DNA from: Thermorudis peleae
GTDB taxonomy: Bacteria; Chloroflexota; Chloroflexia; Thermomicrobiales; Thermomicrobiaceae
Assembly: GCF_000744775.1 (NCBI RefSeq)
Contig: NZ_JQMP01000004.1
Coordinates: 310,001 to 374,000 of the forward strand
DNA: 64,000 bases
Direction: 5' to 3'
Within the stretch, counting starts at the first letter, position 1; every line of letters begins with the position of its first letter. The notes under the pieces were generated by a model, which saw only the letters and a list, made by a program, of their open reading frames with translations, searched no databases and was not told the DNA's origin. The translations under genes and the position numbers were made by a program. Shown piece by piece: positions 8,750-54,728 of the stretch.

Positions 8750-10624
8750 ATGTATCTTGAACAGATCAATAGCCCACAAGATCTCAAGAGGCTCACGATT
8801 CCGCAACTCGAAGTGTTAGCGCAAGAAATTCGCCAGACAATTATTGAGACCGTGATTGGCAAAACCGGTGGGCACTTTGCTCCCAACCTCGGCACGGTTG
8901 AACTCACCTTAGCGTTGCACTACGTCTTCGACTCGCCACGGGACAAGATCGTTTGGGATGTTGGGCATCAAGCATATCCACACAAACTCGTAACCGGCCG
9001 CCGCGATCGCTTCCATACAATCCGGCAAGAAGGCGGACTTAGCGGTTTTCTCCAGCGCGAAGAAAGCGAGCATGACATCTTTGGTGCCGGACACGCGAGC
9101 ACATCCATCTCCGCAGCCCTAGGCATCGCCGTTGCAGGGCAACTTAAAGGTGAGCGTTTCCACACCGTCGCCGTTATTGGCGACGGCGCGTTAACGGGAG
9201 GTATGGCCTATGAAGCGTTGAACAACGCTGGGAGTCTTCAAGTACCTCTCATCGTTGTTCTCAATGACAATGAGATGTCCATTGCCCCGAATGTCGGCGG
9301 ACTCGCGAAATATCTGAGCCGCATCCGCGCCAATACACGCTATCGCCAAGCCAAAGCAGAAATTGAGCGGCTTCTCCGCCGATTGCCACAAGGTGATCTC
9401 TTGCTTAACCTGAGTTATCGCTTTCTCGACGGCCTCAAAGAGGCGGTCTACCATACCATGATTTGGGAAGAGCTCGGCTTTACCTACATCGGCCCGATTG
9501 ACGGGCACAATCTCCGAGAGCTCATCGAGACGTTCCAGCTCGTTAAGCAGATTGATGGGCCGGTTTTTGTCCATACGCTCACGGTCAAAGGCAAGGGATA
9601 TCAGCCAGCAGAGGATGACCCATTCAAACATCACAGTGCGGCCGTGAAGGTGCCAGGCGCTCCGCCGACGCCACCGCGGTATCAAGACGTGTTTGGCGAA
9701 ACCCTTACCCAGCTTGCTTATCACGATCCGCGCATAGTCGCTATTACAGCAGCGATGCCTGATGGCACTGGTCTTTTGCCGTTTGCTAAAGCGCACCCTG
9801 AGCGCTTCTTCGATGTCGGCATCGCTGAGCAACATGCTGTTACCTTCGCCGCGGGCCTCGCAACGCAAGGGATGCGTCCCGTTGCAGCGATTTACTCAAC
9901 ATTTCTGCAGCGTGCCTACGACCAAGTCATTCATGACGTGTGTATTCAGCGACTGCCGGTTGTGTTCGCGCTCGATCGCGCTGGCCTCGTTGGAGAAGAT
10001 GGCCGAACGCATCATGGCGTCTTCGACTTTGCCTACCTCCGTTGCTTACCGAATATGGTGGTGATGGCACCAAAAGACGAAGACGAGTTACGGCATATGC
10101 TGAAAACCGCCATTGACTATGAAGCAGGGCCAATCGCGCTCCGCTATCCGCGAGGCTCAGGCGTTGGTGTTCCGCTTCTGGGCGATCCTCATTCGCTACC
10201 AATCGGTCGCGGTGAACTCCTGCGAGAAGGACGCGACGTTACCCTCCTCGCGATTGGCTCGACTGTTCTGCCAGCTGAGCGAGCGGCGGACATCCTCGCG
10301 GAAGAAGGCATTGAAGCAACGGTCATTAATGCACGCTTTGTCAAGCCGCTTGACCGTACGCTCATTCTCGATGCCATCCGTGAAACTGGCTTGCTCGTGA
10401 CGATTGAGGAAGCACAAGCCGCTGGTGGCTTCGGCAGCGCCGTTCTCGAGCTGCTCGCAAACGAAGGCACCCAGATACCCGTGCGCGTGCTTGGCTTAGC
10501 AGACCGCTTCTACGATCATGCTTCGCAATCGTCGCTCCGGAAGCAGGCGGGGATCGATGCAGAGAGCATCGCCAGACAGGCACGCGCACTCGTTCGGCAG
10601 GCTCGACACACGCCGGTGTCGTAG
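8750..10624 (+). CDS. dxs: 1-deoxy-D-xylulose-5-phosphate synthase
   Basis: A 624-residue enzyme, the normal length for DXS. It condenses pyruvate and glyceraldehyde 3-phosphate in a thiamine-diphosphate-dependent reaction, the first step of the MEP isoprenoid pathway. Visible motifs: [10 protein letters not shown] near 70-79, the ThDP/Mg site [15 protein letters not shown] (144-158), the catalytic-Glu region [15 protein letters not shown], and [15 protein letters not shown]. The ATG follows GAGGAGGAACAGGG. It is probably the first gene of a run that continues with rsmG 17 bases later. No other MEP-pathway gene is in the window. Confidence 0.97.
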
Positions 10625-10641: not shown

Positions 10642-11502
10642 ATGACACGCGCCGCTCATCCCGCTGACCTGTCGGTGCTCCGCGAAATTGCCGAAGCCTG
10701 CGATCTTCGGCTTTCGGCTGCCCAATTGGAGCAGTTTGCCCAGTATGGAACACTGCTGCTGTCGTGGCGGGAGCGGATCAACCTTACTGGTATCACGGAC
10801 TGGCAAGGGCTCCAGCGTACGCTCTTCGGGGACGCGCTTGCGCTTGTGCCACTCATCCTTCACTACTGCCAAATACAGCGCTCAGGAGGTTGTTCTTCGC
10901 TCCAAGATGCCGCACATGCAACAGGCGGATCCTCCACTGCGTCCATACCTGGCTGTCAGCTCCTGGACGTTGGAACAGGCGCTGGCATTCCTGGGATTCC
11001 CCTGAAGCTTGCGCTACCCGATCTGAACCTTACCCTGCTTGAAGCAACCGGCAAGAAAGTTGCATTTCTGGAGCATGTTCTGCAGGCCCTCGGCCTTACT
11101 CACGTGCTCGTCATCCAGGGACGCGCCGAGGAGATTGCACACAATCCAGGTTATCGCGGGCACTTTGACCTTGTTACCGCCCGCGGCCTCGCGCCGTTAC
11201 CAACGCTTTTGGAACTCTGCCTCCCGTTTCTTCATGTTGGCGGGTATGGCATCTTCCCCAAAGGGCCACGAGTCGATGTCGAAATCCATGCAGCGCACTA
11301 TGCTCTCCACATCTTGGGCGGCACGATCGTTGACGTTCGCACCCCGCCTCATCCAGCCCTCGCGACAACTCGCATCGTTGTTGTGCGACTTGATCGTCCA
11401 GTTCCATCGAACTATCCACGCCGTGCTGGTATTCCGCAAAAACGGCCTATTCTTTCCCGCGGTACGGCTGCCAGGGAAGACGAAAAGGAAGGTATATCAT
11501 GA
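10642..11502 (+). CDS. rsmG: 16S rRNA (guanine-527-N7)-methyltransferase RsmG
   Basis: A 286-residue SAM-dependent methyltransferase that modifies G527 of 16S rRNA. The SAM motif is LLDVGTGAGIPGIPLKLAL, followed by LEATGKKVAFLEHV, the RGLAPLPTLLE segment and the typical C-terminal RRAGIPQKRPI. It is longer than most family members because of a Ser/Gly-rich insertion of about 25 residues just before the SAM motif (around residues 75-105). Its stop overlaps the start of the following selenoprotein candidate by four bases (ATGA), which points to translational coupling. Confidence 0.93.
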   Translation: MTRAAHPADLSVLREIAEACDLRLSAAQLEQFAQYGTLLLSWRERINLTGITDWQGLQRTLFGDALALVPLILHYCQIQRSGGCSSLQDAAHATGGSSTASIPGCQLLDVGTGAGIPGIPLKLALPDLNLTLLEATGKKVAFLEHVLQALGLTHVLVIQGRAEEIAHNPGYRGHFDLVTARGLAPLPTLLELCLPFLHVGGYGIFPKGPRVDVEIHAAHYALHILGGTIVDVRTPPHPALATTRIVVVRLDRPVPSNYPRRAGIPQKRPILSRGTAAREDEKEGIS

Positions 11503-12848
11503 GCAGTCAGCACGTTGTCATTATTGGTGGAGACGCAGCGGGCATGAGCGCTGCCTGGCAAATCCGCCGGCTACGACCAGATTGGACAATTACCGTCTTT
11601 GAACGAGGGCAGTACACATCCTATTCGGCGTGAGGGCTGCCATACTTCATCGCCGGTCTGGTCGACGACATAGGCACGCTTATTGCACGCTCGCCCGAAG
11701 CCCATCGGCGTGGAGGGATTGATCTCCGTCTCGGCGAAGTAGTTTGTGAGATTGATGCGACAGCTCAACGGGTCGTGGTTGAGCGTTCTCAGGGCCAGGT
11801 TTACACAGAGCCATACGACCAACTCGTGATCGCCACCGGCGCACGCCCGCGAACGCTCGCGCTACCCGGTCAAGATGCTGCTGGCGTCTTCACCCTCACC
11901 ACTATCCCTGATGCACTGGCAATCCGCACTTGGATTGAGCATGAGCGCCCACGACACGCTGTTGTCGTTGGCGGCGGCTACATTGGCCTTGAGGCCACTG
12001 AAAGCCTTGTCGTGCGCGGCATCTCCACGACGTTGATCGAACAAGCACCGCAGATCATGAACACGCTTGACCCGGAGATGGCACACCTCGTTGCTGAAGC
12101 CATCGAAAAATCTGGCGTTGAACTCCGCCTCCAAGACCGTATCACCCAGCTGCACATACAGCAGGGACGCATTCAGAGCATCTCTGTGGGTGATGACGTC
12201 CTTCCTGCTGACCTGCTGATTTTTGCCCCTGGCATCGAGCCAAACAGTGACCTCGCCCGGGAAGCAGGTATTGCTCTCGGTGTCGCCAACGCGATTCACG
12301 TCGATGAAACCTTGCACACTAGCGCTCCGAACGTCTGGGCAGCCGGAGACTGTGCTGAGACGTTTCATCTTGTAACACGGCGTCCGGCATGGATTCCGCT
12401 CGGAACAACAGCCAACAAGCAAGGTCGAATCTGTGGACAAAACGTTGCCGGAAACGCTTACCGGTTTCCCGGCGTTGTCGGAACTGCTATCACCAAATTC
12501 CTCGATCTTGAAATTGCACGCACTGGCCTCAACGAACGTGAAGCACAGCAGGCTGGGATCACATACGCAACGGCGACGATCCGGAGCACAACCCGTTCGG
12601 GATATTATCCAGGAAGTGCCCCCATTACCGTGAAGTTGCTTGCTGAGCGCGGCAGTGGGCGGCTCCTTGGGGGACAGATTGTTGGCGGAGTAGGAGCAGG
12701 CAAGCGCATTGACACGCTTGCTGTTGCGTTACATGCTGACCTCGATGTTGAGGCATTCCAGTGGTTTGACCTTGCGTATGCTCCGCCCTTTTCTCCTGTT
12801 TGGGACCCTGTCCTGATCGCTGCCCGACAACTTGCGCGCACCATCTAG
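11499..12848 (+). CDS. Probable selenocysteine-containing CoA-disulfide-reductase-family flavoprotein (in-frame UGA at codon 45)
   Basis: Read through one TGA (11631-11633), this frame gives a complete 449-residue FAD/NAD(P)H pyridine nucleotide-disulfide oxidoreductase. FAD-binding IIGGDAAGMSAA is at 8-19, the active-site segment ERGQYTSYSA-U-GLPYFIAG at 35-53, the NAD(P)H motif VVVGGGYIGLEATES lies near 155-170, and VWAAGDCAET near 280. A C-terminal dimerisation domain follows. In CoA-disulfide reductases and NADH oxidases the UGA position holds the single redox Cys (S-x-x-CGLPY). No other stop or frameshift is present, and a SECIS-like hairpin follows the UGA. Sec insertion is inferred; the alternatives are a nonsense mutation or a sequencing error. 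The ATG overlaps the rsmG stop. A naive call would start at ATG 11775 and lose the active site and part of the FAD domain. Confidence 0.85.
11631..11676 (+). promoter_or_regulatory. Candidate bacterial SECIS element with its UGA codon
   Basis: UGA is at 11631-11633. Downstream, UCG-CC (11650-11654) pairs with GG-U-CGA (11660-11665), leaving a bulged U at 11662 and a five-base apical loop GGUCU at 11655-11659. A lower stem UGCC (11638-11641) / GGCA (11673-11676) can close it. The loop begins 21 bases after the UGA, within the spacing known for bacterial SECIS. The E. coli fdhF SECIS has the same GGUCU apical sequence and a bulged U, but there the bulge is on the 5' side. Function is inferred from this resemblance. 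Confidence 0.65.
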
Positions 12849-15920: not shown

Positions 15921-15993
15921 GCCCTCGTAGCTCAAGGGATAGAGCGCTTGGCTTCGAACCAAGAGGTTGGGGGTTCGAATCCCTCCGAGGGTA
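15921..15993 (+). tRNA. tRNA-Arg (anticodon UCG)
   Basis: The cloverleaf can be drawn directly: acceptor GCCCTCG/CGAGGGT, D-arm GCTC...GAGC, anticodon stem CTTGG/CCAAG with loop CTTCGAA (anticodon TCG), and T-arm loop TTCGAAT. The 3' CCA is not encoded. The first acceptor pair is a G-U. It reads CGA and related Arg codons. Confidence 0.93.
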
Positions 15994-15997
15994 CGAG

Positions 15998-52247: not shown

Positions 52248-54728
52248 ATGGCGCTCAAGACCGAGCAGCGGCTTGTCACTGTAACGATTAACGGGCAGCA
52301 GTATACCGTTCCCGAGGGGATGACCATTCTCGAAGCCTGCCGGATGGTTGGCATTGAAGTCCCCAACATGTGCTACCAACCTTTGCTTCGTCCATGGGGA
52401 TCATGCCGGATCTGCACTGTCGAGATCCTGGGGCGGCGTGGCGGACTTGTTGAATCGTGTGCTGCCCAAGTGCGCGACGGAATGGAAATTGCCACCAATT
52501 CCCCGGCATGCGAAGAAGCACGCCGCTTTGTCCTCGAAATGTATTTGATCGACCATGCACTTGACTGCCCAACCTGCGATAAATCGGGTGAATGTTATCT
52601 GCAAGACAACACCTACTTCCACAATGTCCGTCCAAGCCCGTACGATCGTCCAAAGATCGCTCGCCCATACAAGCACTTTAGTGATGTTATCGATTACAAG
52701 TGGGAACGTTGTATCATCTGCGCCCGCTGCACTCGTGTCTGCGATGAAGTCATTGGTGTTACGGCGATCGAAATCCTCAACCGCGGGCTTGAGGCAGAAG
52801 TCAGTCCAGCCTGGGGAATTGACCTACGTGACACGACGTGCACTTCATGCGGCATGTGCATCGCAGTGTGCCCAGTCGGCGCACTGACTGACCGCAAGTT
52901 TGCCCACCATCCATGGGAACTTGACACAACCGAGACCATCTGCGGCTTTTGCGATGTCGGCTGCACACTCAACGTTGAACATAACCGCGGCCTCGTCCGA
53001 CGCGTGACCCATCTCTGGGAACGCGGCTTGAATTACGGCTACACCTGCGTGCGCGGAAAGTGGGGCTACGAACACGTCCAGCATCCGGATCGGTTAGAGC
53101 AAGCATATCGCCGCCAAGGCGATGCCCTTGTGCCGGTATCCCTTGACGAGGCACTCGATTTCGCCGCCGAGCAACTTCGCCACTACCAAGGCAACACGTT
53201 TGCCGCATTAGCCAGTCAAGATGCAACCAATGAAGAACTCTATGCCCTCCAGCTTTTCACCCGGGCTGTCATGGGTTCAAACAACATCGACCGCTTGGCA
53301 ACACCGGCACAGCGCGCCGTTGAACAGGCCTTGCTCGACTCCTTCGGCCTGCCAGTGAACACAAACTCTGTGCAAGAACTCTTTACCGATACCGCGTGCG
53401 CCTTGGTTGTTGGGCCGAGCATTGGCGAGCACGCGCCAGTCGCAAGCTATTGGCTCTACTGGAGCCGAAACACGCGCGAAGCCAAAACGATCGTCATCAG
53501 CCATGATCATTATCCGCTCTGTGACCGCGCAGAAGTCTGGATTCGCGCGTCACGCGGCAGCGAAGCGGCCATTTTGCATGCTATGGCGCGCGTTATCGTC
53601 GAAGAAGGCTGGGCTGCACCCGTACTTGACAACGAGAGCTTCCGCGCCTGGCAGAACGCGATTCGCCGGATTGACGTGGCAGCGGTTGCCGCGCAAACGG
53701 GCGTCTCGGTGGAATTGATTCGTAAGGCTGCTGAACTCTACGCAACTGGCGGCGTTGGCGCCGCAGCCCAACGCCCTGACGGAGGCTACCCGCCAAGTGC
53801 GATCTTCCACACGCTCGCTCACGAGCAGAATCCGGCAGATGTCTATGCGGCCACGATTGCACTGCACAACCTGGCTCTGCTGACCAATAACGTCGGTCGA
53901 CCAGGCGCCGGAGTTGTAGCCTTCCGCGGCCCAGCGAATGCCCAGGGCGCGCTTGACATGGGATGCCACCCAGCTCTCTATCCTGGCTATCAACCAGTGG
54001 CAGATCCGACCACGCGACACGCGTTCGCGGTTGCCTGGCTTGGACGATGGAACCAGCAAGCACCACGGCTGAACGGCTTTGCGCCCCTGGCCACGCTACC
54101 AGAGGCACCAGGTTATGGTCTTGCGGAGTTAACACAGGCAATCCAGCGCGGTGAGATTCGGGCACTGTGGCTTGTGGGATCGAGCCATACCTTTGCGAAG
54201 CCACTTGACGCCAGCTTTCTCGCAGCGCTTGAACAACTCGAGTTCCTGATGGTCGAGGATTGTTTCCCCAGCGAACTAACCGAGCGCGCACATCTCATAT
54301 TGCCCGGCGCGATGTTCCTGGAGAAGGACGGCACCTACACAAGCGCTGACCGCTTCGTCCAACGCCTGCGTATTGCGGTCAACCCACCAGGAGACGCGCA
54401 TTCGACGCTGTGGTACGTCCAAGCAATTGCCCAGCGGCTTGGCTACACCATAGCTGTTACGCACCCGGGACAACTCTTCCAAGAAATTGCGCACCTTGCG
54501 CCGATCTATCGCGGGATTTCGTATCCCCGGCTTGAGCGTGGTCCACTGCCATGGCCGCTCCATGATGCGGTAAGCGCTGGAGATGCGGTTGTCTTCCTCG
54601 GCCCGAATGTTCCAGGCGGGAAGTGGGGAATTTGGCTTCAACAGGCAGCGTTTGGTGCAGCGAGTGCACTGCGCTTTGATGACGGGCTTGCACGCGAGCG
54701 GCTGCGCTTCGTTGTGCCAGCGATCTGA
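52248..54728 (+). CDS. NuoG-like / formate-dehydrogenase-like iron-sulfur molybdopterin-fold subunit
   Basis: An 826-residue protein. Iron-sulfur motifs: 2Fe-2S Cys at about 42, 53, 56 and 71; the His-Cys3 NuoG motif HALDCPTCDKSGEC (about 103-116); two ferredoxin clusters CIICARCTRVC and CTSCGMCIAVC; then CGFCDVGC...YTCVRGKWG of the molybdopterin domain. In formate dehydrogenases a Sec/Cys follows the NN-x-D segment; here GSNNIDRLATPAQRAV has Ala (codon GCA 53307-53309), so formate oxidation is unlikely. The likely role is electron transfer as complex I subunit G or in a related NADH/ferredoxin complex. ATG 52248 fits AAGGG at a spacing of 8. The NuoI-like gene follows 14 bases later. Confidence 0.85.
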   Translation: MALKTEQRLVTVTINGQQYTVPEGMTILEACRMVGIEVPNMCYQPLLRPWGSCRICTVEILGRRGGLVESCAAQVRDGMEIATNSPACEEARRFVLEMYLIDHALDCPTCDKSGECYLQDNTYFHNVRPSPYDRPKIARPYKHFSDVIDYKWERCIICARCTRVCDEVIGVTAIEILNRGLEAEVSPAWGIDLRDTTCTSCGMCIAVCPVGALTDRKFAHHPWELDTTETICGFCDVGCTLNVEHNRGLVRRVTHLWERGLNYGYTCVRGKWGYEHVQHPDRLEQAYRRQGDALVPVSLDEALDFAAEQLRHYQGNTFAALASQDATNEELYALQLFTRAVMGSNNIDRLATPAQRAVEQALLDSFGLPVNTNSVQELFTDTACALVVGPSIGEHAPVASYWLYWSRNTREAKTIVISHDHYPLCDRAEVWIRASRGSEAAILHAMARVIVEEGWAAPVLDNESFRAWQNAIRRIDVAAVAAQTGVSVELIRKAAELYATGGVGAAAQRPDGGYPPSAIFHTLAHEQNPADVYAATIALHNLALLTNNVGRPGAGVVAFRGPANAQGALDMGCHPALYPGYQPVADPTTRHAFAVAWLGRWNQQAPRLNGFAPLATLPEAPGYGLAELTQAIQRGEIRALWLVGSSHTFAKPLDASFLAALEQLEFLMVEDCFPSELTERAHLILPGAMFLEKDGTYTSADRFVQRLRIAVNPPGDAHSTLWYVQAIAQRLGYTIAVTHPGQLFQEIAHLAPIYRGISYPRLERGPLPWPLHDAVSAGDAVVFLGPNVPGGKWGIWLQQAAFGAASALRFDDGLARERLRFVVPAI

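Follow-up and report, generated by a model that had tools for sequence, protein, structure and literature searches.

The locus

The window, i.e. the whole stretch of DNA that was analysed (64,000 nucleotides from Thermorudis peleae), contains a gene which carries one in-frame TGA and lies directly downstream of rsmG. The genes and features that matter here are the following:

8750..10624, + strand: dxs, upstream of rsmG; the order dxs-rsmG-reductase is kept in relatives with a Cys copy and in at least one relative with a Sec (selenocysteine) copy
10642..11502, + strand: rsmG (16S rRNA methyltransferase G), whose end shares 4 nt (ATGA, with the stop codon of rsmG) with the start of the predicted selenoprotein gene
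11499..12848, + strand: predicted selenoprotein gene of the CoA-disulfide-reductase/NADH-oxidase family, FAD/NAD(P)H-dependent, 449 codons and a stop (from the translation and the NCBIfam, Pfam and PDB matches)
11631..11633, + strand: in-frame TGA, codon 45, read as Sec, aligned with the catalytic Cys
11649..11665, + strand: candidate bSECIS upper stem-loop, which fits the bSECIS model as published, but, for its own sequence alone, does so no better than chance

The read-through translation of 11499-12848 has the motif TSYSA-U-GLPYFIAGL around codon 45 and, beyond this TGA, no second lesion in the 449 codons, only the normal terminal stop. A GGAAGG sequence lies closely 5' of the ATG. The original prediction had described a single TGA in an otherwise intact frame whose ATG is coupled to rsmG, and the translation and the ATGA overlap agree with both statements. 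It had also anticipated that gene callers would place the start at 11775; the GTG at this position is indeed the earliest ATG, GTG or TTG codon after the TGA. The gene is also a case for annotation: callers that start it at 11775 would give a protein without its active site.

The dxs-rsmG-reductase order is common to the window, six relatives with a Cys copy and one relative with a TGA copy (L027). Elsewhere in the window, a tRNA-Arg (TCG) is found at 15921-15994, where the program-made ORF list has several overlapping spurious frames.

Enzyme family

The Pfam domains of the predicted protein, all over their gathering scores, are Pyr_redox_2 (PF07992), Pyr_redox (PF00070) and Pyr_redox_dim (PF02852). 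The best of its 72 NCBIfam matches is TIGR03385 (CoA-disulfide reductase, CoADR; 459 bits, E-value 1.5e-137), with a score which is lower than the curated equivalog cut-off of this model (578.8 bits). Among solved structures, the protein matches an NADH oxidase (PDB 6ruz) and the CoA disulfide reductases 5l1n, 3kd9 and 4fx9. Codon 45 aligns with the Cys of the C-G-[LI]-P-Y motif in all three structure alignments (6ruz, 5l1n and 3kd9). The structural characters of the CoADR/NADH-oxidase family are present: the two-domain FAD/NAD fold with its dimerisation domain, and, in S-x-x-C-G-x-P-Y, one catalytic Cys, for which the window protein is predicted to have Sec.

The original prediction spoke of a CoA-disulfide-reductase-family enzyme. 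The Pfam, PDB and best NCBIfam matches bear this out as regards the wider family, and, considering these structure and profile matches together with the TIGR03385 score, we name the protein a member of the CoADR/NADH-oxidase family. The narrower name "CoA-disulfide reductase" and the corresponding substrate are not secured, because the equivalog cut-off is missed. CoA disulfide, persulfide or O2 are candidate substrates.

The catalytic column in homologues

The homologues come from whole genomes, both of relatives and of the phylum, and from contigs of named genomes; the catalytic column is present in 82 of them. It is occupied by Cys in 76 sequences and by TGA in six (the window included), with no other residue, and no other column of this alignment exceeds 90% Cys/Sec. 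The five TGA copies other than that of the window carry the TGA at the same codon: three of them (L025, L026 and L027; 57-58% identity) come from a single different genus in the same family, L032 from a different family of the order, and L047 from the desulfobacterium Desulfoferrobacter suflitae. Homologous coding sequence is thus found on either side of the in-frame UGA, and the Cys of the Cys-containing homologues falls exactly at the UGA, which are two of the characters expected of a selenoprotein gene. Aligning this column and looking for Sec homologues in related strains were checks suggested along with the original prediction, and both support it.

One more homologue (L035, in contig C33 of genome G027) has the Cys at the catalytic column and an in-frame TGA at residue 297, which probably reflects misassembly or damage to the gene. 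It was left out of the count of TGA copies, as its TGA is elsewhere and its catalytic Cys is kept.

Purifying selection

In this code UGA normally means stop, and the GTG at 11775 is where gene callers would begin, so that one may regard the gene as a pseudogene: the UGA would be a true stop resulting from a nonsense mutation, and the gene would either be decaying or give only a 357-residue fragment from 11775. Several observations speak against it. Five homologues, from two phyla, have TGA at this very codon, and there is no second lesion. The three closely related TGA copies have a dN/dS of 0.13-0.15 over the whole frame (0.07-0.16 for codons 4-92 and 0.14-0.15 for codons 93-447), which argues against decay, since purifying selection acts across the whole frame in these copies. 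Decay of the relatives' copies had been named beforehand as an outcome that would count against Sec; it is not what these values indicate. When the window is compared to its relatives, codons 4-44 and 46-92, on the two sides of the TGA, are conserved as much as the remainder. The 357-residue fragment would have neither the N-terminal FAD-binding motif nor the active site, and the Sec machinery of the genome is complete (see below). The chance that one random stop falls on the catalytic codon is about 1 in 449. On the basis of the dN/dS values, the same-codon TGA in relatives and the absence of other lesions, we reject the pseudogene, which we consider very improbable.

Selenocysteine decoding in the genome

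The search of the full genome for selA, selB, selC and selD, which had been proposed as a check, found all four: SelA (559 bits), SelB (333 bits), a tRNA-Sec with a UCA anticodon (73 bits) and SelD (376 bits). The latter has its own in-frame TGA in its catalytic motif, CAGUAGK. By its sequence, the selD gene (L017:1366-2541, contig C3), with one TGA in HCAGUAGK, is a selenoprotein gene itself. Two genes for the alpha subunit of formate dehydrogenase (FdhA; L149 and L150, on contigs C1 and C3) have a TGA at the canonical Sec site, with the motif ARIUHSSTV in both (NQARIUHSSTVPGL). The selenoproteins of the genome were sampled family by family. Considering the machinery and the TGA codons of selD, the two FdhA genes and the reductase, Sec decoding is, as judged by sequence, probably used for at least four genes. 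selA and the tRNA-Sec are also present in the majority of the family's genomes, and in all four of the searched relatives that have a TGA copy (G002, G007, G011 and G025).

The window contains a third FdhA/NuoG-like molybdopterin oxidoreductase (52935-54590, LATPAQRAVEQALL), whose frame has no stop codons. Inspection by eye shows neither Sec nor Cys in the position of the Sec/Cys ligand, and this oxidoreductase may have diverged to a form that lacks the ligand.

UGA is decoded as Cys in some lineages, and the homologous residue is Cys here, so it could be supposed that code variation or suppression inserts Cys or another residue at codon 45 rather than Sec. The genome encodes a bona fide tRNA-Sec (anticodon UCA) together with SelA, SelB and SelD, however, and the other in-frame TGAs that were seen fall at canonical Sec sites (SelD, FdhA), which makes this decoding hardly credible. 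Least probable of all is a sequencing or assembly error: TGA is one base away from TGC and TGT, but we reject a misreading because separate genomes agree on the TGA (three belong to a different genus in the family, and two are more distant).

We conclude that the UGA at codon 45 very probably encodes Sec, and that the product would be a full-length flavoenzyme of 449 residues with Sec45 as its single catalytic residue. The machinery, the column of Cys or TGA and the Sec relatives that do not decay all agree with the original prediction on this point.

A candidate bSECIS element

In the minimum-energy fold, the apical loop GGUCU (11655-11659) starts 21 nt past the UGA. We applied the published bSECIS model as quoted in PMC13188914. 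The six TGA copies (window and five others) all conform to it, as do 31 of the 76 Cys homologues (41%) and 19-37% of the shuffled sequences. For the hairpin fold, the z-scores against shuffled sequences lie at about -0.5 to -0.8 in windows of 50-76 nt, and a 121-nt window gives +0.3. At the fixed position of the stem, the TGA copies have a mean of 5.2 pairs out of 6 vs 3.1 for the Cys copies; three of the six TGA copies are very similar to each other, and part of the stem is a consequence of the conserved residues V/I-G/A-G-L-V-D-D. The hairpin is compatible with the Sec reading and lends it slight support. We rejected it as decisive evidence, because the controls often pass the model and the z-scores are unremarkable.

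Proposed mechanism

SelB and the Sec-tRNA (UCA) would decode the UGA, guided by the stem-loop about 21 nt downstream. In the CoADR from Pyrococcus, the active-site Cys and bound CoA form a mixed disulfide, which is reduced by NAD(P)H (PMC6026696). By homology with this enzyme, Sec45 is expected to form a selenenylsulfide, Sec-Se-S-CoA. NAD(P)H would reduce the FAD, and the electrons would then pass to the Sec45-Se-S-CoA bond (or to a bond with the substrate). The selenolate set free in this way may then attack another disulfide, persulfide or polysulfide, a role that Cys has in the enzymes already characterised. Sec45 would be a better nucleophile and a better leaving group.

Probable exchange of Sec and Cys

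In a quick maximum-likelihood tree, six proteins from a sister genus, all with Cys, form a group with the window protein (97% SH-aLRT), and L025-L027, from the other genus with TGA copies, stand on a branch of their own. Even over well-supported branches, at least four changes of the TGA label are required. These changes and the shared dxs-rsmG-reductase order suggest that Sec and Cys have probably been exchanged, in either direction, at one locus inside one family.

A further hypothesis is that the Sec form has gained chemistry which is absent from the syntenic Cys orthologues (for example the reduction of peroxide or persulfide through a Sec-Se-S-CoA state), with repeated Sec/Cys exchange at one locus in one bacterial family. 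We regard it as unlikely; if it were true, these genes would be a natural experiment on the reasons for keeping or losing Sec. Since Sec and Cys copies occur in one gene order, and since the sister genera all keep the Sec machinery, one could study here what causes the exchange and what follows from it. The Sec form also offers a test of what selenium adds to flavin disulfide reductases, because catalysis in this family relies on a single Cys with CoA as its partner.

Comparison with known systems

The original prediction was that of a probable new selenoprotein. The Sec reading stands and the gene is a new member, but the family itself has been known with Sec since 2006 (PMC1794560, PMC9312934, PMC13188914), so that we rejected the idea of a new selenoprotein family. 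A Sec-containing "NADH oxidase" was listed in Geobacter metallireducens by Zhang et al. 2006 (PMC1794560), an instance from the GOS metagenome was reported under PRK09564 (PMC2398784), and the catalogues of 2022 and 2026 contain a "FAD-dependent oxidoreductase (CoA-disulfide reductase)" under TIGR03385, with the motif UGxP (PMC9312934, PMC13188914). Within the literature searched, we found no publication on the Sec form from Chloroflexota or on its biochemistry. The gene of the window is a new example in a known selenoprotein family, probably with repeated Sec/Cys exchange.

The catalogued Sec FAD-dependent oxidoreductase (TIGR03385/COG0446, for example WP_011365774.1) belongs to the same family as the window protein, and likewise has Sec in place of the single catalytic Cys, in a U-G-x-P motif (UGLP in the window protein). 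It is from Desulfobacterota, whereas the window protein is from a distant lineage, probably Thermomicrobia (Chloroflexota). For the TGA copies of this study, the tree points to several separate exchanges between Sec and Cys.

Regarding the Cys enzymes, the best sequence match among solved structures (residues 4-444) is an NADH oxidase of the CoADR family, from Thermus (PDB 6ruz/6rvb/6rvh). It has the same motif, with Cys where the window protein has Sec. The CoA disulfide reductase from Pyrococcus horikoshii (PMC6026696) matches the window protein over its full length, but it is an archaeal Cys enzyme, while the window protein is bacterial and is predicted to contain Sec.
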